From contig BQML01000008.1 in assembly GCA_022180565.1 (NCBI GenBank), positions 1 to 64,000 on the forward strand: DNA of 64,000 nt, written 5' to 3'. The DNA is from Bacteroidia bacterium. GTDB lineage: Bacteria; Bacteroidota; Ignavibacteria; UBA10030. Position numbers and translations under genes: made by a program. Positions 205 to 18,239 of this stretch are shown here, one piece after another. Positions within the stretch are counted from its first letter, which is position 1, and each line of letters opens with the position of its first letter. The notes under the pieces were generated by a model. It searched no databases. It saw nothing but the letters and a program-made list of their open reading frames with translations, and was not told the DNA's origin.

Positions 205-1488
205 TCAATCCGACTCCACAGCTTCGGCATAATCATCGAGAACACTATCCGACAAATGCTCCAAGTGCTTTTCTTTGGCCAGATCTCGGAGGCTATCGTA
301 TGATATGTACGAGCAAGTTTCCGCCAGGGGGCCGCTTTCCAAGAGGGAGAACACCGGGCGTCTGATTTCTTGGAACACTTTGTCGCGCTTTGCCGGTGGA
401 GCGACAATGTGAAGCTTGATTTTCATATTTGGCTGAAGAGCCAACAAATCGGCCATCCGCAGAATACCTGAGTAGACGGATGTGGTGTGCTCAATCTCAA
501 ACGCGCGAACAATGGATCTCTTGTTCAGCCATAAAACATCTATTTGCTCAATTGTCTTCAGTGTTGTTGTATCATAGTTGAGGGGGAGCCTCTCGAGGAG
601 GTTATCTTCCGATCCTTTCCAGAGCTTCAGAACAGAAGACCTATCGGCCTTAGGTATCCAGATTTTCATTCCCATGCGTGAGCCAATGTCGGCCAAGAGA
701 GCTTGAATGTGAAGCGATTCTCTAATCTCCTCCTGCAAGTCAACTTCCGGCTCTTCTGCCTCGGTATCCATCGGCACTGTCACTGCAACATCTTTATCCT
801 CCCTCTTCACCGTATGTTCCATTTTCCATAGAGCTTTCATTTCAGGGTAATAGCAGAATCGAGTAATTGTCCTTGCCGTCCCATCGATGCCAAGTGAACG
901 AAGACCCGCGAGGATGGCTTTATTGGACTTGACAACCTTTTCTCCAATGGAAGATGTTTCAAAATCGAAGCCGTGCGGAAAGCCAAACTGCTCGATCAGT
1001 TTTTGTCTATCTCCGAGCGAGATAATCGTGCCCGTGTGTACCGGATCGTAGGCAGCAAGAAACGCATTGATTGCATTCGCGCTTGGACCTGTGAGATTGT
1101 TCTTCCTACCCTGATTCATCTCGTAGAGTTGGTTGATGTACTTTGCCTTGATCTCTTCATCGTTTTCTTCAAAGATTCTCGTAATGATGCCAGAGAGTTC
1201 TTTGTCCGAGTGCAATTCGTTGAACATTCTTCTCCAGGCCCCCTGAGCAATCATTGCCCTTGCCACAGCCTCGCTATCCCTTGTGTTTCCCTTTGCATTC
1301 CTGTCAAGTATTCGGACGATTTCGTCGATCTCAGCTTCGGGAAGATCGCCAGACGGACCTGCTAAGACTCGCTCCTTCCAAAACCTACGGAATTTTTCGC
1401 TGTGTGAAGCCCAAATTGTATCTTTCTCCTCAGGATCATACTGCTTAAGGAATTCTGAGAATAGTCTTGGAATGTCCGATTTGTTCAT
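205..1488 (-). CDS. unrecognised defence-island protein with nuclease-like C-terminal domain
   Basis: A 427-residue protein encoded 27 bp after the helicase at 1516-6576 on the same strand. I do not recognise the N-terminal half (residues 1-240, mostly helical and charged). Residues 258-290 (HIQALLADIG, then IWIPKADRS) lead into residues 316-355, where Asp317 in IDVLW is followed by FEIEHT with Glu331 and Glu333, then SGILRMADLLAL. A hydrophobic strand with Asp, then Glu-x-Glu about 13 residues later, resembles the core of PD-(D/E)xK nucleases with the final Lys replaced. That reading is inference; no catalytic activity can be claimed. Its place directly behind a helicase and beside a methyltransferase fits an effector or DNA-targeting subunit of the defence system. 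Confidence 0.75.
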   Translation of the reverse strand: MNKSDIPRLFSEFLKQYDPEEKDTIWASHSEKFRRFWKERVLAGPSGDLPEAEIDEIVRILDRNAKGNTRDSEAVARAMIAQGAWRRMFNELHSDKELSGIITRIFEENDEEIKAKYINQLYEMNQGRKNNLTGPSANAINAFLAAYDPVHTGTIISLGDRQKLIEQFGFPHGFDFETSSIGEKVVKSNKAILAGLRSLGIDGTARTITRFCYYPEMKALWKMEHTVKREDKDVAVTVPMDTEAEEPEVDLQEEIRESLHIQALLADIGSRMGMKIWIPKADRSSVLKLWKGSEDNLLERLPLNYDTTTLKTIEQIDVLWLNKRSIVRAFEIEHTTSVYSGILRMADLLALQPNMKIKLHIVAPPAKRDKVFQEIRRPVFSLLESGPLAETCSYISYDSLRDLAKEKHLEHLSDSVLDDYAEAVESD

Positions 1489-1515
1489 ATGATACTCCGT
1501 CGTTCTTTTCTCAAA

Positions 1516-4500
1516 TCACGTTCTGCTAACGCGCCTGCCAAACACATCTGGATTTTCAGAAAGCTGCTCTTCGATATCGCGATCATAATGGATCACGATC
1601 ACTCGGTATCCCCGCTGAACAAGCTCATGCCTTATCGCTTGGTCCTGTGCCATCTGCTCCGGTTGATCATGAACTGAGCCATCGCAGAAAACACAGATAT
1701 TCGGGCTATAGAAAAAGTCGGGAATGCAACGAGGTTCTTGAATCGCTTTTTGAGCTTCATCAGGTAATCGTCGATGCGATTCTACCAATGCGTTCAAAAA
1801 CTTTCGTTCTAAATCTGACCTCGAATCAGTGAGGGAGCGCAGCCATTCGAGATGTGATGTCCAATCGCGGCCACCTATCCGAGGAAGAGTTTGGCTCGCA
1901 GCAAGGTCCAAGAGGATTTGCCGAATCCCTCGACGGTCAAGCAACAGAGCTTCAAACTGATTCCCATAGCTCATCAGACATTCGTAGCATGCTGCATGGC
2001 AATCAGGCTTTAGGTCATCGCCATTTTGGTTAAAGTGGCACCGCTCAAGCGCTTGTTGTGCTATTCGAGAAAAAGCATCTGCTTCTTCGACGAGTCTCTG
2101 GAGTACACCCGCACCGCCTTCCGTCGCTTCGTACATCAAGATGCTGCCGTGTTCTCCTTCTCCAATGCGTTCGGCAGCAAGCTCCGTCTCTTCAAGCTGA
2201 TACTCTTGTTCACAACCACGCTGAAAAGCGTATTGAAGAGTTGCCTGAACACTGGGGTTATCTCGCAATTCAGGAAGCAGGAACTTTATGAGGAGGATGT
2301 TATGAGTTCCAGCGACGCTAAGTCGGACATTCTCGATTCGTTGCTGTCGTGGTGGCCGTGGTCCTGCATTCGGCGCACTGTCAATGAGCTCTCCGGTTTC
2401 GAAATCGACAAGGAACCCTGGCTGACCGGCGGTTCGCCATCCGTGATTGACTCGTAGCAGAGTTGCTGCCGGTGCGTAAACCAGTCTGAAAATGGAAGAA
2501 CCGTTATGGACGACATCTGCCTCCTGGGTTCGAGGCTGCCCGCCCTCTTGTGCAAACTGAAAATAGGTCTGCACATCGTATCCCCGTCTCCGTCTTTCTT
2601 CTTCATCGCACGTGATTCGTTCCCGCCGTCGCACGCGAACATTCGGCATTTCCAACAAAAGAGGACGTAGGCTATTCTGGGCGTCAAAAAGAGAATTGCA
2701 AACTGGACAACGATCATCATTTGGATTCCAGAAGGCACCACAGGATAGACAAAGTCGCTTCTGGCTTCGACGTTCATCTAATCCACCAGGAGGTGATTGG
2801 AAGCTGGATACCTCCCACTTGGAGCCTTCATGATAGAGAATATTCGCCGGAGCAAATTCTCGAAGGGCAAGGAATCTCGGCCTCGGCACAAACTCACCCT
2901 CATCTCTCGGCACCCAGGCACGGACGGGCAGAGACGGGAAGTTGTAACCCGGCAAAAATCCTTCGCTGGCAAGGTAGCGATAGGGATAGAAATCGCCTTC
3001 CTCCCGACTTGTATTGATCTGGAGAAGCAGATTCCTCTGTCTCAGTGCTTCTTGTTGTCTGGCTTGGGCTCTCTGCTGGTCTTCCCGGGTCCTTGCGCGA
3101 AGTAGGGTGTTCTGCGCATCTAAGAGTTGGCGTGTAGCTGCACGATATAGCTCTCTCCACCTGTCGAACGCCTTGTCGAACTGGGCTGCGGCTTCTGAGA
3201 GAACTCGTTCAACCCATTCTGTGCTGAACCATTGAGAAGTAAAAAAGAATCCGCTGTCAGCTTTCAGCATACTCAGGATATGGTCTCGTAGGTTCGCTCG
3301 TGCAGATTCGCTTACCGTAAGTTCCGCTGCAACAGTTTGCCGCAAAGGAAGGCCTTCAAGCTCGGTTTCGAGGATGTTGTCAATTGATTGCCCGAGCGGA
3401 AGACGGAGATGAGCCAACCAAACGGCGTGGATGTGTGCGCGGAGAAGAGCTTCGTTTGTCAGATCAAGACGAGGCGGGCGGACAGTGCCAGCCACCATTT
3501 CTTCCTTTCGGCGGAAAAAATACTGATCGTGGCTGTTGAGTGCACCGCAATACGTGAAGATAAGCCCCGGCTGTCCCTGTCGCCCCGCGCGTCCGCTCCG
3601 CTGTGCATAGTTGGCAGGAGTTGGCGGAACGTTTCGCAAATGAACAAGATCTAGATCGGCAATGTCTATGCCCAACTCCATCGTGGGCGAGCACACTAGA
3701 TAGGGGAGCCTTCGCTCAACCGCATCCGATTCCTGGCTGAATCGCTTTTCTCTCCGCTCACGCTCGCCGGGCTTGACGACCTGTGCCGTGTGCTCGCGCG
3801 CCTCAAGACCTCGCAACTCAACCGGTTCACCCTTATAGAAGGCTTGAAAGAAGGCATTCACACTGGGGGCAACATTCTCGTACGATGGATGAGTTGCCCG
3901 CCGGCGATACAATGGGCCTGGACCCTGTGGGGTACCATCACCTAACTTCCAGACAATTCGAGCGGCATCTAATTGGAAAAACTGGTGGTCGTCAACAGGA
4001 TCCAGGCGTGCAAGGAAACCCTGACTCACAAGTAGACTCAGCAAACCATCAATGAATGTGTCGTATTGTTCTACGCTGAGACCCAATTCATCTCGAAGAT
4101 ATCTTCCAATTGCACTCCGTTCGCTAAGGCTAAATCCTTCAACGTATCGTTCTGATTGACCTAAACGCACAAAACGATTTGCTGTTCGCAGCTCATTGAT
4201 GTTCGGGTCGAGTCCCCAGAATTCATTCAGGTTCTGCACGGCGCGCTGGCGAATTTGTTGTTGCGTGTTTTCCCTCAGGCATGAGCTATTGATAGCAAGT
4301 TTTCTGCGGAACTGATTCAGAATGGCCCGGATGATGGTTGACCGTTCTTCGGGAGCGAGAGCGGCCATTGCTGGAAGCGACTGCCAGCGTTGATCGTCTG
4401 CGCACAAATCATCTAAACCCTGAAAGTCTATGCGTAAGAGTCCGACCTGCTCCAGATTGGGTTGAACAATACGCCAGCCACGGCGAAGATCTTCGTACAG

Positions 4501-6576
4501 GCGATACTCTGTCAGCTCTCGGAATGAGCGCCACACATCGGCCGCGGCGGAAGATTGAGGATCGAGCTCCGGGTTCTTTGCAATATCCCGAAGAGTCAAG
4601 CCGCTGGCGGACACTGTGGCATCGGCGACGCGATCGAACGTAAGTTCTTTTTCACGGCTTAAGGCCGAGTAAAGGGCTGAACGCAACAGGGAGACATGGA
4701 CAAAATCGTTGAAGTGGCCGGCTTGAAGAGAAGCATCCTGGCGATTGTCGGTGAAGGAGAGGAGCTTGTCCTTCGCAACCCGAGTTCGCACTGCGTTGCG
4801 AAGCATTGAAGTTGCCAGCACAGTGGTTGCGCTACTGCGCGCTTCGCTTGAGAGAGACGCTAACTTGGTAAACTCGAGTTCGCGGGCTGTATAGTACTCG
4901 CCGCAATTCAGGCAAAGAGAGAAAGATTCCTTCTGCCACCACATCTTGATTGCATGATCGCGGCGCTCCGGAGAAAACGTTCCGTCGGCGGATACCCATA
5001 CGGGCACAGGAACTCGATCGCGCCAGGTTCGAGTCAGTCTTCCTCTCGCATCATACCATTCTGCCGGGATCTGGTCTTCGGTCCAGTCATCCTCGTCGGG
5101 AGCAATCATCAAGTATCCGGCAATGCCATCACCGATGTCCTCTTGATTACCAAGGGGATGAGGGAAGAACCGATCGTCGCCCCGTACTACGTGATAGTAG
5201 TCCTGTCCGCAAGAACGGCAAAACTTGATCGGAACGAACAGCCGCCCTTCGCTTGCACGGAGTTGTCCCTCCGTGGAGAACTCCCTTGTGCTTGCAGCTT
5301 CAAACGTTGCGAAGAGGGCACGACCCTGTCCGATGAATTGATGAAGTTTGAACGCAAAGGCCCTGCCGCCGTCTTCACGTAACAGATTTCCGCCCCGGCT
5401 GAGAAGTTCTCTAAGATGCATTTCGCACTGCTCGGTAGAAGCGCCGGTTTCTTCTGCGAGGGTTTTTGCCGCCTGTGTGAGCGTACTTGGTTTGCGGCGC
5501 TTCAGTTTTCCGCCCTCCTCTGGCTCTACGCCGAACTTCCATTCCACCCAACGCGCCAACGGATGCCGTCGAAATGCTTCCAAGCTTGTGGGGATGGGTT
5601 GCGAAAGCGACGACGTCAGCTCGGCAGTTGTTGGTTCGCCGCCTTCTGTGAAGGGAACGAGCGTCTCTTCAATGACGTCCGATGGAACAAACGGATGTCC
5701 AAACAGGCGATGTGCAAAATCGGCGACGGCGGCGCGACGAGAAGCCGCAGTTGCGTCGGCACTGGCAACCATAGTAGCGCTGGTGCCGATGTGAATCAGG
5801 TGTGGCCCCGCGCTGCGCTCTTTCAGCCGGCGGATGAGCATTGCCACATCGGCGCCCTGACGACCGCGGTAGGTATGCAATTCGTCGAAGACAACATAGC
5901 GTAATCCACCCCCTGCTTTGTCCAGGAAGCGCTGATCTTCGGGCCGGACAAGCAGTAATTCCGCCATCACGTAGTTGGTCAGCATGATTTGGGGCGGATG
6001 AAGACGCATGCGCTCACGTTCTGCGTCCGGCGTCTCTCCCGTGTACTTTGCAAATGATACGGGAAACTTCTTGCCCGTTCGAGACTCGTAAGCCTTCGCC
6101 AGCGTCTCCAACGCCTTCTGCTGCGAGTTGACCAGCGCGTTCATCGGATAGACAATGAGGGCGGCCACCCGGTCACCGGTTTGCGGCTGACGAATGAGAT
6201 TGTCTATGATGGGAAGAAAGTAGGTTAGACTCTTACCGGAGCCTGTTCCGCTGGTGACAACATAGCTTTCACCTTTGACCGCCTTTTCCAGGGCCTCGAC
6301 CTGATGCTGATAGAGATAGAAGGGTGTACCATTTGCTGTTCTGAAAATTGCCGCCGCCTCTGCGGTAATCGTTCCTCTGGCTGCAAGTTCATCCACCGAA
6401 GCGGCACGGGCATACGAAGGGCTGAGTTGCAGCAGCGGTTCCGGCCACAACTCGGCTTCCTCGATCAGTGTACGGTCAACGAACTGCCGCGCCCGGTCAT
6501 CGGCAATCGTGACAAAGGAACGGACAAAGTTCTGATAATCTTCGAGGACGGATGTGTGAAGGTTGAAGATGCTCAT
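1516..6576 (-). CDS. large DEAD/DEAH helicase with DUF1998 and Vsr-like C-terminal domain (DruE/DrmA-DrmB-like)
   Basis: A 1686-residue superfamily 2 helicase. Walker A is TSGTGSGKS (residues 108-116) and the Walker B box is DELH (231-234). GTSATM follows, and the second RecA domain near 960-1005 contains [11 protein letters not shown] and [12 protein letters not shown] zinc ribbon ([10 protein letters not shown]...CPVC) lies near 1280. A DUF1998 module near 1420-1545 has EGGAGVL and the Cys-rich [15 protein letters not shown]. The last 110 residues contain PDFFY and VFCDGSVHD, similar to the Vsr endonuclease core. Helicase plus DUF1998 is the architecture of Druantia DruE, and of DISARM DrmA and DrmB if fused; those systems act against phage DNA. 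The ATG overlaps the Fic stop codon by 4 bases, so the two are translationally coupled. Assignment to one named system is uncertain. Confidence 0.88.
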
Positions 6577-7682
6577 ACCACCTTCTTCCCCTCAGCAGTG
6601 TTGATCAGTTCTGCGAGGACGAAAACCTGACCGCGACGTCCGCTCCCGCGCCGAAGCACCTCCACAATGCCGGCATCTTTGAGCTTTGAGATGAGAGTGT
6701 TCATCATTGGGCGGGTGGGCATGTTCTTCCAGGAAAGCTGGGAAATCTGAAACACCGGATGTGCGAACATCTTATCGAGTAACGGCACGGCAAATTGTGA
6801 GTGTGTCAATGTAATAACTTCTTCCTTCAGTCGGTCATAGAGAGCCATGATGTTTCGGGCTTTCTCTGCATTTGCCCTCGCTTGATGCTCTACACCCGTC
6901 AGAAAAAACTCTATCCAGGCATTCCATGCATCACTTGTCTGACCTAAACTGCGCAGATGGCTAACATAGGCCTCCCGATGTTCTTCCAGAAAAGCCGACA
7001 GATAAAACATCGGGCGCGAGAGCAGTCTTTTCTCATAGAGAAATAAGGGGATGATCATGCGTCCAAGTCGTCCGTTGCCGTCAAGAAAGGGGTGGATAAT
7101 CTCGAACTGCGCATGAACGATCGCCAGTTGAACCAGAGCATCCGGTCGTTGCATGTGATAGTACTTCTCCCAGTTGTCGAGATACTCTGGAACGAGTTCA
7201 GGTTCGGGCGGTATGAAATGTGCCTGTTCAATGGGAGTGTTCGGAAGCCCGATCCAGTTCTGAACCGTGCGAAATCTCCCCCTCGCCATATTCCTGCCCC
7301 GCACGCTGTCAAGTAATGTTGCGTGGAGATCCTTGAGCAGATTCAGGTTGAACGGCTTCTGTTTCAGTGCTTGTTCGGCCTGACGAAGCGCACGACGGTA
7401 GTTCATAATCTCACGGATGTCCTCTTGCCGCTGAACCTCGGATGGCTTCTCGCCGGCTTCGAACTTCAGCACATCACCTAATGTTGCCTGCGTACCCTCG
7501 ATGCGGGATGAGAGAACTGCTTCCTGAGTGGTGAGAGGAGAAAGCAGCAGCTCGGGATTAGAGATCCCTTGTAACACGCCATCGAAGAATGCGAGAGATC
7601 GGTTCGCGCTTGCGATCAGTGGGATGAGCGGCCCCCATTCAACCTGTTCCAACGGGAGCTTTTGTGGTACAAATGGCTTCAC
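6573..7682 (-). CDS. Fic family protein adenylyltransferase with winged-helix C-terminus
   Basis: A 369-residue Fic protein. The catalytic motif [12 protein letters not shown] is intact at 197-208, so the protein should transfer AMP (or a related group) from ATP to a hydroxyl side chain of a target. Residues 58-63 (SSRIEG) match the inhibitory [S/T]xxxE[G/N] helix of class II Fic proteins, where the Glu blocks ATP until released. The N-terminus is of the Fic_N type, and residues 295-369 look like a winged helix-turn-helix. The gene starts an operon: it overlaps the helicase by 4 bases (ATGA). It is preceded by a 333-bp gap with nested palindromes that may bind this wing domain. The target is unknown. 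Position between methyltransferase and helicase suggests regulation of the defence system or a guard toxin. Confidence 0.9.
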
Positions 7683-8015
7683 AGGGCTCTAAACTTGTTT
7701 TTGCTGCAATATACGCAAATCAATTTGCATAAAGCAATAACGCTAATACTTTATGCAAACAAGTTAGCAGTTACTGAATTAGACACAAAACACCTTTAGA
7801 ATAAAGGGGTTAGCGGACGTCTCAAAAATCCGCCGAAAGCGGACCTCCAAATTCGCTCGCAGTCAGCCAATGTGTCCTTTTATCAAAGACACCTTCTAAC
7901 CAACCTATCCCTGAATAAAGAACAGAATATATGGTGCGCCAAACTCTTGGATTCTCATCGGATTTCAATATCTATTGACCCTTCATCTCTCCGCCGCCTG
8001 CAGACTAAACCGCCC
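7683..8015 (-). promoter_or_regulatory. regulatory gap upstream of the fic-helicase operon with nested inverted repeats
   Basis: No gene is seen here. On the fic side the sequence is AT-rich and holds two nested perfect inverted repeats. The inner pair is TTTGCATAAAG at 7724-7734 with CTTTATGCAAA at 7749-7759. The outer pair is AACTTGTTT at 7692-7700 with AAACAAGTT at 7757-7765. They lie 10-85 bp upstream of the fic ATG, where an operator or promoter is expected. Autoregulation by the Fic winged helix is an inference. The middle part has a small TCCGC/GCGGA hairpin near 7833-7846. Confidence 0.55.
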
Positions 8016-8037
8016 TTAGGCGGGGTGGCCCGGCGGC
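7990..8037 (-). terminator. strong GC-rich hairpin at the methyltransferase 3' end
   Basis: On the minus strand the last codons and stop of the methyltransferase lie in a nested hairpin. Outer arms are CCGCCGCC and GGCGGCGG, with an inner CCGCC/GGGCGG stem. There is no T-run after it, so intrinsic termination is uncertain; it may be a palindromic repeat that now supplies the C-terminus. It separates the helicase-methyltransferase pair from the fic operon. Confidence 0.4.
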
Positions 8038-11000
8038 GGATTCAACGACGACTTGTACGGCTTCCCTGTTCTCTGTGCTTCTAACATTGCATCGTAAATC
8101 TCCAATATGCGCTCCTTCGTTCTGTACCTGCCGTATGCTTCCTCGTCTTTTCTCTTGACGATAGGGAACTGCTCGAGGATGTACGACACGGCATCGCGAG
8201 GCCGGGGGAAGTGTTCTTTCAATGCAGCAAGTTGCTCTGGCGTTTCATCCACCACCGCCCATTCTCTATTCGCCATTCGCCACTCACCATTTGCTTCGCA
8301 AGGAAGATACAAGTGAAAAAACGCCGCGTCCAACTCGCAACGGATCTCGAAGCGGCGGTCGGGGTCCCAACGGAAGGGTTCTCCTTGGAAACCAACATCA
8401 TGCGCCATAGCAACCATGTCGTGAGACGTGTAGACAAGTTCAAGCGTCCTTGAAACAATCCAGTCCTTGGTTACTTCTCTGTTTGAGAATGGCATCAGCC
8501 CACCAAAATTCTCCGGGACCAAAATGGAAAACTGCTTAAGGTAGAAGTAGTTTAGATTAGTTCCTCCGACTTTCTGCCGTGTAACATAGTCTGCTACTAC
8601 AGAACTCATGCATGCCGTTAGACACAGTCGCTCAGTGCCTGCAAGCGAGGTTGTGAACAGAAGCGGTAGACTGTTGCCAACTGGTGTCTTTGGAAAGGAG
8701 GTTGTGATCAATGTTCGTTCATTTGTTGTGTTCGTTATGTTCCTCCACCCCAGAAACCACTTCGGGCTGAAACGATCCACAAGCTCTGTCGCAATTGACT
8801 CAGGGGAGGAGAGTTCGTTCTCAATCCTGCGTGCATCCTCATCGGACAAAGGAAACTCCCGCTCCATCTGAGCAGCAAGCTCGTCAGTGGACAGTCCTGC
8901 AAGAAGGGTGGCAACCTCTTTGTTGGGGGAGTACGGTACGGCATTATCCATCACACGGTCCGCTTTGGGCTTGAGCTTGTGATTCAAGTAGTAGCCGGCG
9001 AGCCAGCACGAGAGTACCCGCTGGATGCTCGGCCTGTGTTTGAGCCGGAGAGCGGTTGCCAATGGCTCGGGATATTTCGGGATAACGGATTCTACGATCT
9101 CTTCCTTCACCCAGTACCTTGGCTGAACGACGAAGTTCGGGTCGGCTTTCTCTTCGTCGGTGACATCCCTCACCTCCACTTGCCATTCGCCATTCACCAT
9201 TCGCTCTTCATACGTTGCCCAGCGGTGATCGAACTGATGGATCATCTTCGCTTCGTAAAGCGGTAAGTAGCGAGTAGCGAATTGCGAATGATCCGCCGAT
9301 TCCATTTGCCCCTGACCATTCGCTATTCCCTTTACAAAGATATTCCCTTCCAGCTCAAATCCCTCTTCTCTCAACTCCTTCGCCGTGCGGAAGTGGTGGG
9401 AGTCGTTTGCCATGTGAAAGAGGGTCTTGAACGAGAGTCTCCACGGGTTTTCTTCCGGACGATCCTCGGTTCGTTCACGCCATAATACAGGCACACGGCG
9501 ATATATCGCCTTAGTCAACTCTGCATCCGCCTGGCTGCGAAAGATGGGACAGTTGCCCGTGTTGGGATTGAGAAGCTCGATCTCCTCCGCAGTGAGTGTG
9601 AACCGCTTTTCCGGGCGTTTGAGGTCATCGGTATCGAGCGCAAAGAAGACGAACGTGGCCGGCTCCGGCTTTCCGCTCCCACGGCAGGTGAGGAGACTGA
9701 ATTTCATCCGACTATCAATTGCAGGAAAAATTCCTTTCCTGTTCTCAAAATCGAAGAGATTCACCAATGCACCGGAGCGAGTCATATCCTGGAAGAAAAA
9801 CTTCGTGGTATCGTCTGTGGCAATTCCGGTGGGCACGATAATGCCGCAACGGCCATCTTTTGCAATCAAGCGGCGAGAAAGCTCCGCAAAAACGGCGTAT
9901 GTGTTGATATCACCGCGCCCGGTGAGCGGGTAGCGACCGCCGTGCCGTAAGAGCATGCTTGCCGCCTGCGAGGAGCGCTGAGCGGCCACATACTCCTCGT
10001 AGAGTCGCGGACTTGTTTTAGGCAGTTCTTCTATCATCCTCGCTCGCGCCGCCTTTGTCGGGGCATTCGCTATCCGAGCATCGCGCACGGCAAAGAATTC
10101 CTGCTCCTGCAACTTGATTCTTTCCCACGGGGGATTGGAGAGGACGACATGGAATCCGGAGTGAGATCCTTCAGACTCGGGATGTTCACCTGCGGCGAAC
10201 ACCTCCGGGAACTCCAAAGGCCAGTGAAAGAACGCCTGTTGGTGGGAGTAGAGCGTTGCCAGTCCCATAACACGGGCATCAATAGGCCGACCGTTGAGGT
10301 GATCCGCCAGCGCACCGGAGGTAATCGGCACTGAGTCAGGTTTGAGCGGTTGGAAAAAGGCAGCCGTCCACAAATCGCAGGCACGTTTGTAGCGTTGCCA
10401 GGCTGGGTCATCGTGACTCTTCTCGAAAAGTTGCTTCTTGCGGCGAATGGTGTCAGGACTATCGTCTGCAATCGCATCAATTTCATAGCTGTGGGCGCTG
10501 AATTCATTCAGTGGAAACTCAATGTTGCGGCCAAACAAGTCTTCCTGTCCTTTCCGCTCATCACGGTTTCGTTGTGCGAATGTTCTGGCGGCTGTTTTGT
10601 CATCTCCTTCAAGTGGCTCGAATGCTTTGTCGGGGATCCCCTCTTTAAGCACCTTCAGGTCGAACACTCCGATGAGCGAATCGCCACAACGGATGCGATG
10701 GTCGAGAAATGTCAGCGGCTTACCCCCGGTATGACTTTCGAGCCAGAGAGCCACGCGGCAGAGATCAACGGCAAGCGGGTTCTTGTCAACGCCATAGATG
10801 CAGTGCGAGATGACATCGCGGGTTGCTTCACGGACTCGTTCCGGGGCAGGCTCATCCTCACCTGTGCGAAGACGAGCAAGCTCTTTACCTAAACGACGTG
10901 CAGCAGCAAGCAGAAAATGTCCGGAACCGCAGGCGGGGTCGCAGACACGGATGGAAAGAAGCGCGTGTTGGGCAAGGAGCGAATAGCGAATGGTGAGTGG

Positions 11001-12890
11001 AGTTTTGGCCCATGCTATAGCGATTTCTTTCTGCGCTGGAGACTTCGTTCGAGACTGAGAAGCTGCTTGCCCAGGGTCTCCAGTTCCGTCAGTAGTGGCT
11101 GAGTTGCGTCCGGAGAGCAAAGATTCACCTCGGTGCTCAGGATCAAATGGGTTTCCAGTTCCACTCTGCTGCCGTTCGCCTGACGGAGGAACTGGATGAA
11201 CTCCGCCGTGTAACGCCTCCCCCAACCTTCCGCGATGTTGGTCGCTATCGAAACCGCTGCTCGGCGCATCTGGCTTGTCAGCCCGTAGAGTTCGCTCTGC
11301 GGAAAGTTGCTCGTCAGCTTGTACACGAGCTTGGTGATCTGTATCGCCCGCTGCCAAACCTCCAAGTCCCGATAGTCGTTGAAAGTCTTCATTGGTAAAC
11401 CTTTCTCTGATTTGTATCGGTACCCCTCCCCATTCGCCACTTGCCATTCGCTCAGCCTCTTCGAGTCGTTCTTTCATGACCGGCTCAAGTGCGCTTTGGA
11501 TCAACTCATTCACCAGTTGTGGCGGCGTGTAATATGAGCCGGTGGTCTTTCGCTCGGAGCCCGTGATGAGTTTGAACTCCGGATTACCAAAAGCGCCGAT
11601 ATCAACAGCAGGATGGAATTCGAGCAGGCTTTCGTACACCGATCCCAACTCTTCAACATCGAGCGCAGAATAGTTGACGCGTCGAGGTGGAGCCGATTGA
11701 CTTTCCTGATACCAGGCGAGATACCAGAACGCTTCTAACAGGTCACGATTGGAAATGAAACAAGCGTCCAGGTCTTGCCATTCGAAGAGTTCACCGTTGA
11801 GTGGCGGCAGTTCAAGTATTGAAGCGAGTTTCTCGTCAGCGAGCACCTTCCAGAGGACTTGCAAGCTTCGCCATACATCGTCGTGGTCGGTGAAGGAAGC
11901 TCGGTTCTCAATCAATCGCCTCAACCTGCCGATGCCATAGTGGTCGCGGTAGATGTGGCTGGGACTGAGCAACCCTCTGTCCTCTGATACCAAGAGAAAG
12001 AGGAAACGGTAGATCAAGCGAAGGAGTTGGCGGTAGAGATTTTCTGGAACGATGCGATCCGGCTCCACGCATTGTGGAGAGGTCTTTCGCCGCAGGTCAT
12101 CGTTCGACGGATGGCGGAGAAATCCGTTGGCCAGACGCTTGATGCATTCCTCCACGCCGTCACGGAGGTGCTCGCGCACGCGGCCGCCCTGCTCCACGGA
12201 GTGCTGGTAGTATTGTTCGAGCAGGCAATGGCGGGCATCGGGGAGAGCGTGAGGAAAACGTGTGCGATGAATGAGCCGGTACAGTGCCGCAAAGTCATTA
12301 AAGCGCTGTTCCACAATAATGCTTTGCAGATCGAACTCGATGTAGGCTTGCCGTCGTATGAATGTGCTGTCGCGCAGCAAGCGCAGCGTGGAGCCGTTGG
12401 TCACAATACTCCAAAGATGCTCGGTGCGGTTGAGATACTCCTGCACGAGTGAATGCGGGGCAAGGCGGGGCCTTCCCGAGATGGGCACACGACCCAACTC
12501 TTGTCGGGCCCCCACGATATGCACAGGGGGAGAATCCTCCGGTTCACCCATCCGATGCGAGATGGCGAAAGTCATTCCATCCACCTCATATGCGCGCTGG
12601 TTGTACCGTGCTTCGATACCCAACAAGCCGAAGAACGGGATCGCCCATGCATCGCGGGTCACGGTTGTCCCAACATCGTTTTCCGGAAGCCGTTGCAGGC
12701 GGTTCTGGAACACTTCCCACAACTTCCGACTATCGGCAAAGACTGCCGCGATTTCATCTATGAGATTTCGCCGACCGTCAACACCGAAATCTGCCGGTCT
12801 TTGTCCTGGCAGATCACCGTTGAGGAGGTGCTCGATCACATCTGGACCGAGCAGGCCGCCTTCGATGCGTATGGCAGGGAGAGAGATCAT
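8016..12890 (-). CDS. giant Eco57I-type N6-adenine DNA methyltransferase (DrmMI-like), with in-frame insertions
   Basis: A 1624-residue class I DNA methyltransferase. The SAM-binding motif VCDPACGSGHF lies near residue 650 and the adenine-methylase motif SNPPW near 917. Closely related Eco57I-type proteins of DISARM-like loci are, from memory, clearly shorter. The excess is explained in part by an insertion at residues 480-639 that encodes an S23 protein in another frame, and by smaller heptamer-repeat insertions (around residues 1190-1240 and 1530-1545). All of these keep the reading frame open. The start overlaps the end of the SNF2 helicase gene by 4 bases, so the pair is coupled. Its likely role is self-marking, and possibly part of restriction. 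No separate nuclease domain is evident. Whether the inserted protein folds is unknown. Confidence 0.88.
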   Translation of the reverse strand: MISLPAIRIEGGLLGPDVIEHLLNGDLPGQRPADFGVDGRRNLIDEIAAVFADSRKLWEVFQNRLQRLPENDVGTTVTRDAWAIPFFGLLGIEARYNQRAYEVDGMTFAISHRMGEPEDSPPVHIVGARQELGRVPISGRPRLAPHSLVQEYLNRTEHLWSIVTNGSTLRLLRDSTFIRRQAYIEFDLQSIIVEQRFNDFAALYRLIHRTRFPHALPDARHCLLEQYYQHSVEQGGRVREHLRDGVEECIKRLANGFLRHPSNDDLRRKTSPQCVEPDRIVPENLYRQLLRLIYRFLFLLVSEDRGLLSPSHIYRDHYGIGRLRRLIENRASFTDHDDVWRSLQVLWKVLADEKLASILELPPLNGELFEWQDLDACFISNRDLLEAFWYLAWYQESQSAPPRRVNYSALDVEELGSVYESLLEFHPAVDIGAFGNPEFKLITGSERKTTGSYYTPPQLVNELIQSALEPVMKERLEEAERMASGEWGGVPIQIRERFTNEDFQRLSGLGGLAAGDTDHQARVQADEQLSAERTLRADKPDAPSSGFDSDQHRGRLGEALHGGVHPVPPSGERQQSGTGNPFDPEHRGESLLSGRNSATTDGTGDPGQAASQSRTKSPAQKEIAIAWAKTPLTIRYSLLAQHALLSIRVCDPACGSGHFLLAAARRLGKELARLRTGEDEPAPERVREATRDVISHCIYGVDKNPLAVDLCRVALWLESHTGGKPLTFLDHRIRCGDSLIGVFDLKVLKEGIPDKAFEPLEGDDKTAARTFAQRNRDERKGQEDLFGRNIEFPLNEFSAHSYEIDAIADDSPDTIRRKKQLFEKSHDDPAWQRYKRACDLWTAAFFQPLKPDSVPITSGALADHLNGRPIDARVMGLATLYSHQQAFFHWPLEFPEVFAAGEHPESEGSHSGFHVVLSNPPWERIKLQEQEFFAVRDARIANAPTKAARARMIEELPKTSPRLYEEYVAAQRSSQAASMLLRHGGRYPLTGRGDINTYAVFAELSRRLIAKDGRCGIIVPTGIATDDTTKFFFQDMTRSGALVNLFDFENRKGIFPAIDSRMKFSLLTCRGSGKPEPATFVFFALDTDDLKRPEKRFTLTAEEIELLNPNTGNCPIFRSQADAELTKAIYRRVPVLWRERTEDRPEENPWRLSFKTLFHMANDSHHFRTAKELREEGFELEGNIFVKGIANGQGQMESADHSQFATRYLPLYEAKMIHQFDHRWATYEERMVNGEWQVEVRDVTDEEKADPNFVVQPRYWVKEEIVESVIPKYPEPLATALRLKHRPSIQRVLSCWLAGYYLNHKLKPKADRVMDNAVPYSPNKEVATLLAGLSTDELAAQMEREFPLSDEDARRIENELSSPESIATELVDRFSPKWFLGWRNITNTTNERTLITTSFPKTPVGNSLPLLFTTSLAGTERLCLTACMSSVVADYVTRQKVGGTNLNYFYLKQFSILVPENFGGLMPFSNREVTKDWIVSRTLELVYTSHDMVAMAHDVGFQGEPFRWDPDRRFEIRCELDAAFFHLYLPCEANGEWRMANREWAVVDETPEQLAALKEHFPRPRDAVSYILEQFPIVKRKDEEAYGRYRTKERILEIYDAMLEAQRTGKPYKSSLNPPPGHPA
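8260..8294. repeat. tandem 7-bp array (5 units, consensus CATTCGC)
   Basis: Five consecutive heptamers (CATTCTC, TATTCGC, CATTCGC, CACTCAC, CATTTGC) lie inside the methyltransferase gene. They encode NGEWRMANREW near its C-terminus without breaking the frame. The same unit makes up the ends of the S23 element at 10977-11453. Confidence 0.7.
9173..9209. repeat. tandem 7-bp array (4 units, consensus CATTCGC)
   Basis: Four heptamers (CACTTGC, CATTCGC, CATTCAC, CATTCGC) are followed by TC. They encode the stretch ERMVNGEWQVEV between two blocks that normally adjoin (FDHRWATYE and VRDVTDEEKADPN). This is a solo copy of the end repeat of the S23 element, in frame. Confidence 0.7.
9264..9335. repeat. 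miniature hairpin insertion made of heptamer repeats
   Basis: The left part contains GTAGCGAATTGCGAATG and the right part CCATTCGCTATTCCC, so the two ends can pair imperfectly over a loop of about 30 bases. It encodes GIANGQGQMESADHSQFAT between FVK and RYLPLYEAKM of the methyltransferase and keeps the frame. It resembles the S23 element with its gene removed. Confidence 0.6.
10977..11453 (-). mobile_element. S23/intervening-sequence-like element inserted in frame in the methyltransferase gene
   Basis: The ends at 10977-11002 and 11428-11453 are 26-bp imperfect inverted repeats built from the 7-bp unit GCGAATG/CATTCGC. Between them lies a complete four-helix-bundle gene. The element is 477 bp, exactly 159 codons, and has no stop in the host frame, so the methyltransferase frame reads straight through. 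The host residues on each side (ERLEEA and LAQHALLSI) could be contiguous. S23-type proteins are known from intervening sequences in 23S rRNA genes, where inverted ends form a stem. A copy inside a protein-coding gene is unusual. No target-site duplication is certain. Confidence 0.75.
11015..11392 (-). CDS. four-helix-bundle protein, S23/bacterial intervening-sequence family
   Basis: A 125-residue protein starting at MKTFNDYRDLEVWQRAI. The pattern DLEVWQRA...LTSQMRRAAVSIATNIAEGWGR...FLRQANGS is the signature of the 23S rRNA intervening-sequence protein family (S23, four-helix bundle), which is related to the Avd accessory protein of diversity-generating retroelements. The length is normal for the family. 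A longer start at 11440 (MANGEGYRY) would run through the end repeat of the element, so the internal ATG at 11390-11392 is preferred. It is read in a different frame of the same strand as the surrounding methyltransferase gene. Its function is unknown; binding to the RNA of its own element is a reasonable guess. Confidence 0.85.
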   Translation of the reverse strand: MKTFNDYRDLEVWQRAIQITKLVYKLTSNFPQSELYGLTSQMRRAAVSIATNIAEGWGRRYTAEFIQFLRQANGSRVELETHLILSTEVNLCSPDATQPLLTELETLGKQLLSLERSLQRRKKSL

Positions 12891-15748
12891 CCGGTTACCA
12901 TTGGCTGAAGTACCAAAACGCCGAGAAGGTCAACTGGAAACTGAGGCTTCACATTCAGCTCACGAACCCGCATCCCTACCGCTTGCCGAACACGTTTATG
13001 GCTGTTCTCAACCTCTTCAGCTCGAGTTTTGATGTGTGGCGTTAACGTAGCTTCGAGCGAGGGCCAGGCAGCAAGCGCATCGGCAACCAGCGTGCGCTTC
13101 TCGGTGATAGGAAGGTTTGCGTCTGCCTTCGCTTCAAGCAATAATCTAAGAGCTTCATTGTCCGGGACTTTCACCGGCTGGCCGTCTTTGTTTTGGAAAG
13201 CCGTCACAAGGACTTCTTCAGAAAGAAGAAGAGGGCGTTGCGGTTGCTCAACGAGGTAGCGTACACGGAGAAGCAGGGCGGTTGTAAGCCGTGAGACAGA
13301 ACGAGTCCGGATTGCACCACAGCGTGACGCGCGCGCATCGCCATGCTTTGTCAATGCCTCTTCCATGAGAAAGCGTGCAAGAGTCGCAACGAAACGATGA
13401 TTGCGGCCAAGATACTCTGCTCCCTCCGGAGTTGGGGAAACAAAGCTGATGGCCCATATGCCGCCCTTCGGTCGAGGGAGAACAAACTTGATAGCCTCTG
13501 GAACTGTGACAATAGAACTCGGATCCACCCTCACCAGGAAGACGTCCATTCTTCGCTTGTCACTCGTGATGTGTAATCCCAACCTTTGAGCTGCGTTAAG
13601 CACAAAGCTACGTACGGCGTCAGGATCACCGAGGACTGAATCGGTGGCTTCGAGTTCCTTCCGGACCTCGTCCGGCTTGATGGCGCGCTGAGCAAAGCGG
13701 GTGCGATTGATGCGCTCGCGTTCTGCATCACGCTCCCAACGTGTGTGCAATTCTTTTATCTGGTGAGCCTCAAGTCCAAGGTCGAGTTGAAACTGTTCGG
13801 TAACGGGTTTACGGGGACGGAGAAAGAGCGCGTTCAACACCGCTTCGGTAACCGTCTCGCTTTCTTCCGGTACAGGTACATGAGTGCCGAGTGTACGATG
13901 GATTTCACGCGCTTTGTTCAGCAGAACCTCAATTACAATTCCGTCAACCGGGCTATCGGGACTGAAGTATCGGATCGTCTTCACCACTTTCGCCGGCTGG
14001 CCATATCGGTCAACGCGGCCTTCACGCTGTTCGAGACGATTGGGATTCCAGGGTAGGTCGTAATGTAAAGCAGCGTTGAATTTTTCCTGAAGGTTCACGC
14101 CCTCCGACAGGCAATCCGTAGCGACAAGCACGCGAGGCATCAGCGCATCGATTTCGTCGATCTTCGCTCGGCGCTCGTCATCACCAAGGCGTCCGGTTAT
14201 CGTGACGACCTGCACTTCGCTGTTGGAACCGAGCGCATTCCGCAAATGCGTTCCAACATACTCGGCTGTCGCAACGTAACGACACCAGACGATTGGGTTG
14301 AAACCTTGCTTGACCAGACTCTTCACCAATTCGGCACAACGGATGACTTTGGTGTCGTCAGCAGTGTTCATGAGCGATTGGGCCAGGCGTCCCAGTTCTC
14401 TCAGACGACGACGATCACTTTCAGCCAACGTTGATTCAGTAGACTTTAGCGGCGATGTGGGTTGATCATCATCCGTTCGGTCGTTGGACGACTCGAATAC
14501 GGACACACGGAAATCCGGCTCGTCTTCTGTTTCTGGTAAGGCCTCATGTCGCGTTTCAAGTGCAGCGACTGCGGCCGCGGGACTGGACATGACACACCTC
14601 AGCAATGCCAGTGCGCCCCAGTAACGTACGCGCTGCCGTCGCCTATCAAGCTCCTGTCCGGTTCGGACCATCTCTGAGCAGAACTCGTACGTTCTGTCGA
14701 AGAGATCCTGGTAGGGCTTCGAAAGTCGGTAGGTTTCGTCCAGAAGTTCGCGTGCGGGGAAGCAGTGCTCGCCTTCCCAATCTTTCACAATGTCCGTCCG
14801 TGTACGCTGGACAAAGTGCCGCGCAAGCTCGATGCGTTGTGGCTCCGTAAGTGTGGCCATTTCCCATTCTCCGAACTCTGGCTTCAGGAGCGAGAGAAGC
14901 GAACGGAATGCGGCTTCGATGCCGCTGTGTGGAGTGGCAGTAAGAAGAACTAAGTGTCGTCGGGGGTCCTTTGCAATCTCCCTCAGCAGATCGTGTCGCT
15001 GGTGCTGGTTCTTGTTCATCGAATTGGCCGTTGCTGAACCGTGTGCTTCGTCCACAATGATAAACTCAGGCGGATTCAGCAAGAAGAGATGACGATTGCG
15101 GTCGCTTTTCACGAAATCAATACTGGTGACTTGGATTGGGTAATACTCATAGATACTTTGCTGGCGGTTTGTCTTGCGGCTCTCCAATTGACTTACAGTG
15201 CCCGACCTGATCACAACAGCGTCCATGTTGAATTTCTCGGAGAGCTCCTTCTGCCATTGGTCGCACAAGTAAGGTGGGCAAAGAACACAGAGGCGCTTGA
15301 TTTCTCCGCGATCGAGCATTTCGCGTGCGATCAACAACGCTTCGATAGTCTTGCCCACACCCACGTCGTCTGCAATCAGGATTCGGATCGTTTCCAATCT
15401 GAGCGCCATGAGAAGAGGGACAAACTGGTAGATTCGGGGCCGAATCGAGATTCGACCGAACGACCGGAACGGCGTCGCACCTTCACGAAGCGTCAGTCGC
15501 GCAGCGTGCCAAAGAAGCTCAGTGCTTCCAGCATCCGCAAGATCGCCCGCAGTTGGTAGTGGGAATGTTGCGGAACGAACTCGCTCACCCGGAAGGGTGT
15601 AGCCGACGATATCGCTCAACTGTTTGTGAACAGCCACAACCTCGTCGGTCGCTCCAGTAAGCGGACGAAGAAGGTAGATTCCGTCGTGATCGCTCGGGAG
15701 TAGTACCCAATCACGGTTACGGCAGCGGACAATGGAGCCTGGGTTCAT
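12887..15748 (-). CDS. drmD: SNF2-family helicase, DISARM DrmD-like
   Basis: A 953-residue superfamily 2 ATPase. Walker A is DDVGVGKT (127-134), the Walker B box DEAH (233-236), and LLTATPHSG follows. The second RecA domain near 545-580 contains ATDCLSEGVNLQ and EQREGRVDRYGQ. The accessory C-terminal 350 residues are not recognised. A SNF2 helicase directly followed by an Eco57I-type methyltransferase is the front half of a class 1 DISARM operon, so DrmD is the best name, although the rest of the operon departs from that scheme. It is expected to translocate on DNA and assist in distinguishing or blocking foreign DNA. The operon seems to start here: a minus-strand terminator lies about 60 bp upstream. 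Confidence 0.85.
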   Translation of the reverse strand: MNPGSIVRCRNRDWVLLPSDHDGIYLLRPLTGATDEVVAVHKQLSDIVGYTLPGERVRSATFPLPTAGDLADAGSTELLWHAARLTLREGATPFRSFGRISIRPRIYQFVPLLMALRLETIRILIADDVGVGKTIEALLIAREMLDRGEIKRLCVLCPPYLCDQWQKELSEKFNMDAVVIRSGTVSQLESRKTNRQQSIYEYYPIQVTSIDFVKSDRNRHLFLLNPPEFIIVDEAHGSATANSMNKNQHQRHDLLREIAKDPRRHLVLLTATPHSGIEAAFRSLLSLLKPEFGEWEMATLTEPQRIELARHFVQRTRTDIVKDWEGEHCFPARELLDETYRLSKPYQDLFDRTYEFCSEMVRTGQELDRRRQRVRYWGALALLRCVMSSPAAAVAALETRHEALPETEDEPDFRVSVFESSNDRTDDDQPTSPLKSTESTLAESDRRRLRELGRLAQSLMNTADDTKVIRCAELVKSLVKQGFNPIVWCRYVATAEYVGTHLRNALGSNSEVQVVTITGRLGDDERRAKIDEIDALMPRVLVATDCLSEGVNLQEKFNAALHYDLPWNPNRLEQREGRVDRYGQPAKVVKTIRYFSPDSPVDGIVIEVLLNKAREIHRTLGTHVPVPEESETVTEAVLNALFLRPRKPVTEQFQLDLGLEAHQIKELHTRWERDAERERINRTRFAQRAIKPDEVRKELEATDSVLGDPDAVRSFVLNAAQRLGLHITSDKRRMDVFLVRVDPSSIVTVPEAIKFVLPRPKGGIWAISFVSPTPEGAEYLGRNHRFVATLARFLMEEALTKHGDARASRCGAIRTRSVSRLTTALLLRVRYLVEQPQRPLLLSEEVLVTAFQNKDGQPVKVPDNEALRLLLEAKADANLPITEKRTLVADALAAWPSLEATLTPHIKTRAEEVENSHKRVRQAVGMRVRELNVKPQFPVDLLGVLVLQPMVTG

Positions 15749-15802: not shown

Positions 15803-15850
15803 ATAAAAAACCCGTAGGGTGGGCTTGCTGAAAGTTTCTTCCCTACGGGT
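15803..15850 (-). terminator. rho-independent terminator of the AbiE/nuclease unit
   Basis: On the minus strand, ACCCGTAGGG (15841-15850) pairs perfectly with CCCTACGGGT (15810-15819) over a 21-base loop and is followed by TTTTTA. It lies between the nuclease gene ending at 15983 and the helicase gene starting at 15748, so it separates the two transcription units. Confidence 0.75.
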
Positions 15851-15982: not shown

Positions 15983-16609
15983 TCACTGAAATGTGCCTTG
16001 GCGGGCAGGTATAAAGGTATAACAATATTGAAAAAAATCAATTTGAAGACTTTGTTCGATCTCTCGTGATATTGATCCTCCTTTCCGTTCAGCTTTTGCC
16101 CGATAGGGCTCGGAATGTTCATTGTGGAGTTGCCAGTTCTCGACGTATTGTGACGCGAGTTCCTTGTCACGGACCACAAGAAGATTCTCTGCGTTACTCT
16201 CCTCAGCTGCCTTGGTGAAGTTAAATGAACCAGTAATCACGACTTCATTGTCTATGATCATCACCTTGTTGTGAGCGATGGCGTGTGCTGCATCGATTTT
16301 GGTCATGATGCCGGCATTGGCCAGAAAGTCGGCGGAAGAGTATTTCTCCGTTCTTTGGCTCTTGTCTAACAGAACCTGAACTTTGACTCCTCTCCGATGC
16401 GCTTTCACTAACGCCTCGGCAATCCGTGCAGAGGTGAACGAATAAGCCTGGACGAGCACGGATGATTTTGCGTTATCGAGTGCTTGCTTGATGGCGAATG
16501 TGGCTCCGCCGCGGGGAGAGAATCCGCCAAAAGGCAAAGCCCGGCGGACAGGGTAGACGTTGCAGGTGAGGGAAGCGCGATTCTCTTGGGCAGATGCAAT
16601 AGATGCCAA
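15983..16609 (-). pseudogene. PLD-superfamily nuclease (Nuc-like), 5' end lost
   Basis: The frame encodes a single-HKD phospholipase D-type nuclease: AHNKVMIIDNEVVITGSFNF with His113, Lys115 and Asp120, preceded by SSVLVQAYSFTSARIAEALVKAHRRGVKV. Family members (Nuc) are secreted, work as dimers on DNA, and begin with a signal peptide. Here only its end remains: the frame upstream of the nominal TTG start reads VLLASIASAQENR and then runs into the abiEii sequence, so the initiation region is gone. Residues 20-29 (PVRRALPFGG) are an extra hairpin-encoded insert between VY and FSPRGG. About 40 unusual residues follow the core at the C-terminus. DISARM DrmC is also a PLD protein, but this one matches secreted Nuc better. 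Expression would need the TTG or coupling to abiEii. Confidence 0.7.
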
Positions 16610-17139
16610 CAGGACAGTGCTCTCACTTTCCCGGCGAATAGCTCTTCCAAGGTGACTGAATCAAAATCGAACACATAGTCTTCATCCAACTTAAAGGGTC
16701 GCTTGCGATGAAGTCCCGATACAGGTATTCTCATTAAGTAGTTCAAATCAATCTCCAGCGTGAAATTTCCGCCAAAAGCGCTTGGAGCCCGGAGTCGCCA
16801 CTTACCGCCAGCGTGTTCATCAGCAGGTGCGTGTTCCACAGAGATACCACGAGATTCTGTCAGCTTCTTCAACTCCTTCTCAAGAACAGGTCGGTCTTTC
16901 AACATTGTGTTCCTATCGGCGCTGGCAACATAATTGAGGTCGATGTCGACCGAAAGACGTGGTAAAGAAAACCAGAAAAGATTGATTGCTGTTCCTCCTT
17001 TGAGCGCAAACTTTCTTCTGAGCAATGGATGACGGCTTATTTCCCGCAAGAGATCCAGAAGAGTCATCTGCTTCTGCAGAGTCTCTGCGGGGAAGCTCGT
17101 CCGTTGTGACATCTTTTCAAGGTATTCCCGTGAGAACAT
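16408..17139 (-). pseudogene. AbiEii nucleotidyltransferase toxin, 3' truncated and fused to foreign frame
   Basis: Residues 1-175 are AbiEii-like: KGGTAINLFW followed by LSVDIDLNY gives the GSx10DxD nucleotidyltransferase motif, and EELFAGKVRAL is the third conserved block. From about 16615 leftwards the frame enters the nuclease gene out of phase (SCWHLLHLPK...) and reads 68 meaningless residues to a stop at 16408. The C-terminal half of the toxin, with its remaining catalytic block, is missing, so the toxin is probably dead. The ATG overlaps the antitoxin stop by one base, as in intact abiE operons. The junction is sharp, as expected from a deletion that joined two genes. Confidence 0.8.
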
Positions 17140-17948
17140 CAGAGCTCCTCCCAGCTCCGTTCGAGGACCGCCTCCGGTACAACGAGGTTCCAGCGTTTGA
17201 CGTACTTGCCACCCTTCTTCGACCGATCCCAGTACACCGCTGCTGCAGGTTTGTTGCGTTCAAGATTCTGAAGGAGCGATTCCTCGACGTGAAAGGCCTC
17301 GCGGTGCTGTTCGAGAAAAAAGCCGACAGTGGCGTGGAGTTTTTTCTGCTCGCGGAGTTCAAGGTACTCCATCAGAACTTCGAATTGCAGGTATGGCATC
17401 TTTTCAAGGGAGCGGTACATCTCTTCGAAACCGCCACAGTATTGAGGCCGCTCTAAGCAGTCCACCAGTGTGCGCTCTTTTCCGGTAACGGTTATTTTCA
17501 GACCCACACGCTCTCCTTTTTCAGTTCCGAAGAACTGTTGTGATTTCTTCTGCAGTTTCTCCGGTGTTCTTACGGAACGAAAATGACTTCCACGGAAGCG
17601 AAGCGCTGGGCGAAAACGATTCGAGAAATAGTAGTACGTGTTGAAGAGGCTGTGTCCAAACCCCAAGAGATCAAGTGCAGTATGGAATCCGATCACCGCA
17701 TCATCTGAGAGTTTTGAGACTACCAAAAATGGATCGGGAGATGTTTGTTGGACATTACTACCAGGCCGAATGCTAAAGTAAAGACCCTCCTTGATCACTC
17801 CTATTCGTTGCATCTTTTTCTGGTAGAGTACGGTATCGTATGCCTTCCGATCTCCATTCTTGTATCCGAGGTAGTCTCGTAACTCCTCTAGTGTGAAGAC
17901 AGGATGGTTTTCAAGAAAGGCCAGCATGTTCTGGTCGCCATTTGCCAT
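17139..17948 (-). CDS. AbiEi-family antitoxin (type IV toxin-antitoxin system)
   Basis: A 269-residue protein beginning with a winged-helix segment (residues 8-60: FLENHPVFTLEELRDYLGYK...). The AbiEi core follows: DDAVIGFHTALDLLGFGHS, then KITVTGKERTLVDCLERPQYCGG. AbiEi proteins repress their own operon through the N-terminal domain and neutralise the AbiEii nucleotidyltransferase through the C-terminal part. Length and motifs look complete. Its toxin partner downstream is truncated, which leaves a solitary antitoxin. A palindrome at 18021-18044 is the likely operator. Confidence 0.85.
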   Translation of the reverse strand: MANGDQNMLAFLENHPVFTLEELRDYLGYKNGDRKAYDTVLYQKKMQRIGVIKEGLYFSIRPGSNVQQTSPDPFLVVSKLSDDAVIGFHTALDLLGFGHSLFNTYYYFSNRFRPALRFRGSHFRSVRTPEKLQKKSQQFFGTEKGERVGLKITVTGKERTLVDCLERPQYCGGFEEMYRSLEKMPYLQFEVLMEYLELREQKKLHATVGFFLEQHREAFHVEESLLQNLERNKPAAAVYWDRSKKGGKYVKRWNLVVPEAVLERSWEEL

Positions 17949-18020: not shown

Positions 18021-18044
18021 AATCTCGTGTAATTATACGAGATT
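18021..18044 (-). promoter_or_regulatory. palindromic operator upstream of abiEi
   Basis: AATCTCGT, 8 bases, ACGAGATT: a perfect inverted repeat about 75 bp upstream of the abiEi ATG in AT-rich DNA. A further half-site (GCGAGATT) lies at 17974-17981. AbiEi proteins are known to bind inverted repeats in their own promoter; the match to this palindrome is inferred. Confidence 0.55.
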
Positions 18045-18239
18045 GCAAAGAAAATAGCAAGAACAAAAAGCTAGTGTGGACTGTTGCAAGTTGGCGGAAT
18101 AGACGAACCTATTCTAAGTGGATTCCCCAGAAATTCGATGTAAAGGACTTGTGCCCGGGTAGAGGATGTGCCCCGCTACAAAACACAGTGGCCCGCGGGC
18201 CCAGGCCATTCTGATTTTTTGATAGGAGGGAAAAGTGTG

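Follow-up and report, generated by a model that had tools for sequence, protein, structure and literature searches.

A probable deletion joins the abiEii toxin gene to a Nuc-type nuclease gene in an AbiE operon of the Ignavibacteria

The abiE locus and its junction

The locus described here lies in the window, by which we mean the whole stretch of 64,000 nucleotides that was analysed. It consists of a complete abiEi antitoxin gene, the first half of an abiEii toxin gene and a Nuc-type nuclease gene, all read from right to left. Judging from a promoter-like site at one end and a terminator hairpin at the other, the limits of the operon would be about 18060 and 15805. The features are as follows.

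18021..18060, minus strand: promoter-like site TTGCTA-17-TATAAT (18060..18032), the best of 6 sites in a promoter scan, with inverted repeat AATCTCGT-N8-ACGAGATT (18021..18044)
17139..17948, minus strand: abiEi antitoxin gene, complete, 269 aa (PADLOC AbiEi, positions 5-264 of 265, E 6e-86)
16615..17139, minus strand: remnant of the abiEii toxin gene, residues 1-175 (Pfam and PADLOC matches, alignment)
16603..16618, minus strand: proposed deletion junction (alignments)
16408..16614, minus strand: out-of-frame tail of the toxin ORF, 68 aa (16614..16411) plus stop, without homology
15983..16615, minus strand: nuc, Nuc-type PLD nuclease gene, 5' truncated, HKD domain intact (PLDc_2, 1byr, intact N-termini of relatives)
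16523..16552, minus strand: 30-nt REP-like palindromic element CCTGTCCGCC..GGCGGA, in frame in nuc (family pattern, empty site in a relative)
15805..15850, minus strand: candidate intrinsic operon terminator, hairpin CCCGTAGGG..CCCTACGGG TTTTTT after nuc (sequence and terminator scan)

The antitoxin gene had been predicted to be intact together with its operator, and we find the gene and an operator-like repeat intact. A full-length abiEi adjoins the toxin remnant, its end overlapping the start of abiEii, and the relatives of its product are colinear and 56-67% identical. The inverted repeat surrounds the second hexamer of the promoter, and similar AATCTCGTA..CGAGA repeats occur upstream of abiEi, at about the same distance, in three related loci (L194, L195, L196), so that a role as the AbiEi operator is likely. 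By analogy with a published AbiE system, AbiEi may repress its own synthesis from this promoter (PMC3985639). In two relatives (L004, L006), ORFs resembling integrases or recombinases, recognised by eye, are found immediately 5' of abiEi, which suggests that mobile islands carry these AbiE pairs.

The toxin ORF (17139..16408, minus strand, 243 aa) is similar to AbiEii only within residues 1-176 in profile searches, where it covers positions 2-150 of 238 in the Pfam AbiEii profile (E 1.4e-18) and positions 3-175 of 306 in the PADLOC AbiEii model PDLC02305 (E 5.9e-54). When aligned with four intact relatives, the similarity ends at FAGKVRAL, residue 175 (bases 16617..16615), beyond which the relatives continue with (L/F)(E/D)RSxxRDLYDV and then approximately 145 more residues. 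Full-length copies in relatives are mostly ∼320-350 aa, in line with the original prediction that the toxin had lost its 3' half. From ∼16615 the DNA reads, in the other frame and as had also been predicted, as a PLD nuclease (PLDc_2, E 3.7e-29; Salmonella Nuc, 1byr, E 8e-32). The ORF thus ends in 68 residues that are nuclease DNA in the wrong frame rather than toxin, and a genuine toxin-nuclease chimeric protein was rejected since this tail has no homology. The exact base of the junction is ambiguous, with CTGTTGGCA at 16612..16604 also resembling the continuation of the toxin in G104, a genome from another family of the class.

The remaining part of AbiEii retains motifs I and II and the lysine of motif III (K171); the arginine of motif III and the whole of motif IV (+DxxD, here RDLYD) are absent, leaving the four-motif set (I-IV) of an AbiEii incomplete. 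In the AbiE system that was studied experimentally, the R180A and D192A substitutions abolish AbiEii toxicity, and D192A strongly lowers GTP binding (PMC3985639). In MenT toxins, the Asp equivalent to D192 is essential too (PMC10435456). Because the motif III and IV residues that were required in these published mutants are gone, the toxin fragment in the window is predicted to be inactive. A search for solved structures matching intact AbiEii by sequence gave no usable match. In another genome (L058, G037:C51), an abiEii gene from this subfamily breaks off near residue 139 next to an intact abiEi, representing an independent loss of toxin.

The nuclease gene and its palindromic insert

The first nuclease residues after the junction are VLLASIASAQENRASLTCNVY, and further on there is a full Nuc-type PLD domain (PLDc_2) with the HKD motif HNKVMIIDNEVVITGSFN. 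An N-terminal signal peptide with its start codon, which is part of a complete nuclease of this type, is not present in the window. In G104, 40 residues precede FSPRGG, and in a second relative, G004, about 42, compared with 21 plus a 10-residue insert in the window. The window gene is accordingly short of ∼19-21 N-terminal codons, including the start and about half of the signal peptide (∼19 codons when set against G104), so that the predicted loss of the nuclease start is confirmed. Alignments with intact abiEii and nuc genes, proposed earlier as a check on the junction, hence display both truncations. The joined DNA has no in-frame ATG 5' of nuc, and the first candidate start is a TTG at 16609.

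The core of the nuclease has neither a stop nor a frameshift and keeps the HKD motif. Its comparison with G104 gave a dN of 0.08 and a dS of 1.49, the latter being near saturation and hence approximate. The nuc genes of the window, G104, G004 and a third relative, G017, form one clade (support 0.989) in which the protein branch of the window is very short. Strong purifying selection acted on the nuclease through most of its history; with such a constrained core, the junction would have to be young unless the truncated gene has stayed in use.

Two other identities for nuc were considered and rejected. Its matches to DISARM DrmC are weak PLD-domain matches (1e-14), and the helicase and methylase genes nearby form no canonical drm set. 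A tRNA-linked mobile unit was also rejected, as a tRNA-Arg(tct) lies near nuc at two loci of the same genus (L046, L051) and not at the window. On the minus strand, positions 205-15748 of the window hold a run of defence-like genes, encoding REase_II-like, DruE-like DEAD helicase (with an MZB domain), SoFic-like Fic, DrmMI-like methylase (1624 aa) and DpdE/DrmD-like SNF2 helicase proteins, which do not amount to a canonical named system. G025, G027 and G009 (L044-L054) each contain several nuc paralogues, many of which are truncated or interrupted by stops, and three of these copies have ∼200 nt of upstream sequence in common.

The palindromic insert (CCTGTCCGCCGGGCTTTGCCTTTTGGCGGA) adds PVRRALPFGG between NVY and FSPRGG. 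In G104 the nuc gene is uninterrupted at this position, between GATATCCAC and TTCTCTCCCCG, and provides an empty site, while in G017 and G004 this position is occupied by an element of the same kind, with further nested inserts. In 31 genomes of the family, the pattern TCCGCC-N6-26-GGCGGACAGG was found at 67 sites among the matches listed, versus 2 for a reversed-pattern control, and copies elsewhere in the family lie mostly outside long ORFs. As a single strand the element folds into a hairpin (z -3.9), and with pattern and hairpin both present the insert belongs to this TCCGCC..GGCGGACAGG family; the one in nuc is the single canonical copy in its genome. Because the insert-free G104 is nested within the insert-bearing group of the nuc tree (support 0.87), one has to suppose a single clean loss of the element, two separate gains, or an error at this weak node. 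Several palindromic elements, TCCGCCTTCCGCAAGCGTGCGGCGGACAGG among them, break up the nuc gene of G004 (L061/L043), and some recur nearby, in the manner of a hot spot.

Gene order in relatives and the origin of the junction

Searching the class with the toxin half led to 15 other genomes. The undeleted arrangement that the original prediction had suggested looking for, abiEi-abiEii-nuc, was found in G104 and G017. In G104 (contig 77) the ATG of nuc overlaps the stop of the toxin gene as ATGA (GGTATATGATC). The AbiEii there matches the same PADLOC model as that of the window (1.5e-91), the two nuc genes share 78% DNA identity across 450 nt, and the G104 nuc carries a frameshift of its own. In G017, a different AbiE pair is followed by nuc after a gap of ∼20 bp. 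The undeleted form of the exact operon of the window was not seen among the relatives searched. G104 excepted, most other members of the AbiEii subfamily lack a nuc gene after the toxin gene in the flanks fetched, so that nuc would have been acquired by the lineage of the window operon before the deletion, or else by the same recombination.

Upstream of the AbiE pair that precedes nuc, G017 also has an AbiEi remnant (L042, 3889-3286), residues 16-137 of which correspond to positions 10-131 of a 198-position model and which is followed by a 76-bp nuc remnant; it is a second AbiE locus beside nuc, with the toxin lost. A general AbiE-nuc pairing across other phyla was rejected, since among the nuc loci from the contig scan AbiE occurred in the fetched flanks only at that of G017. 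The association is restricted rather than general, and is represented by three genomes, that of the window included. No empty site was obtained from related genomes: in one of the same genus (G001), neither gene was found, a result that its 72% completeness makes uninformative, and the flanking DoxX gene, searched in the family, had no match outside its own genome.

We consider it probable that the ancestor of the window had a three-gene operon, abiEi-abiEii-nuc, in a G104-like order, with a promoter at ∼18040 and a terminator at ∼15810. According to this model, a deletion of ∼0.5 kb took toxin codons 176 to the end together with the first ∼19 codons of nuc, and joined the two genes out of frame. 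Consistent with this, toxin similarity gives way to nuclease similarity in the few bases around 16615, and 497 nt are missing relative to G104. The C-terminal half of AbiEii was not recovered from any other part of the genome (best E 1.49), which fits a deletion better than an inversion or an insertion. A deletion leaving a solitary antitoxin, as was originally proposed, is well supported by this absence and by the undeleted order in relatives. Counted against the model are the missing nuc in other relatives of this AbiEii, the identity of only 33% between the AbiEii of G104 and that of the window, and the draft state of the assembly, which is in 111 contigs.

Some of these points also lend themselves to other explanations. 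An illegitimate recombination may have joined a nuc fragment from elsewhere into abiEii, breaking both genes at once with no previous trio, as might be expected where nuc is missing from most of the subfamily and where its copies in genomes of the same family are scattered and often broken. However, in two relatives nuc directly follows abiEii and is read in the same direction, so that a simple deletion is the cheaper account, and neither a donor nor the displaced toxin half has left a trace; we thus regard such an event as unlikely. The fragmented assembly could also mean that the junction is a chimera of reads or contigs from separate places in the genome. This is very unlikely, because single-copy sequence lies on both sides, no repeat is present at the junction, and the partners are genes that adjoin in relatives, which is not expected of a random chimera.

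Fate of the locus and comparison with known systems

If the deletion model is correct, AbiEi would now be an antitoxin that represses its own synthesis and has no partner, and the toxin piece, having lost the residues needed for nucleotide binding, would be inactive. The nuclease domain, complete and devoid of a normal start or signal peptide, might be silent, or might be made as a low-level intracellular protein from a non-ATG start. One may speculate further that, as an addition to the deletion and not an alternative to it, nuc is translated through coupling or from the TTG at 16609, giving a cytoplasmic nuclease under AbiEi control and a new two-gene module. The open core, the retained HKD motif, the low dN relative to dS and the short protein branch would all fit a locus still in use. 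A recent deletion, however, would produce the same pattern, there is no in-frame ATG start, many relatives' copies of nuc decay and that of G104 is frameshifted, so we hold this addition to be rather improbable. Equally doubtful is the broader idea that a Nuc-type secreted nuclease is a recurrent third AbiE gene across the class, coupled to the toxin in translation and found on unrelated AbiE subtypes, with the window representing a maintained, antitoxin-controlled, start-less intracellular nuclease.

The locus is an AbiE operon that has decayed in part and whose partner gene is less usual. The junction itself is mostly an ordinary broken operon, and the AbiE-nuc association is somewhat more interesting: this decay product led to the AbiE-nuclease trio in G104 and G017 and to the second remnant in G017. 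In the texts covered by a full-text literature search, a HEPN survey left aside, no earlier report of such a trio was found. Should nuc be a working partner of AbiE, abortive infection by this system might be linked to the breakdown of extracellular or periplasmic DNA. The window also shows, in a natural setting, an antitoxin kept after its toxin was lost, and its nuc is an example of a protein tolerating a palindromic repeat in frame.

With the AbiE type IV toxin-antitoxin system (PADLOC AbiEii PDLC02305, AbiEi PDLC02270), the window shares the gene order, the antitoxin and the N-terminal half of the nucleotidyltransferase toxin, and its promoter-like site has an inverted repeat that may correspond to the repeats bound by AbiEi; it differs in that the toxin is cut before motif IV and a nuclease forms a third gene. 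Its nuclease has the complete single HKD-motif PLD domain of the Nuc-type secreted PLD endonucleases (Salmonella/plasmid Nuc, 1byr, PF13091), with the C-terminal half intact, but it is without a start and part of the signal peptide and contains the 10-residue in-frame insert from a palindromic element. A further parallel is offered by palindromes within genes such as the Rickettsia palindromic elements. The likeness lies in a short hairpin-forming element placed in frame in a coding gene, whereas the family in the window is defined by TCCGCC..GGCGGACAGG and, in this bacterial family, stands mostly outside long ORFs.
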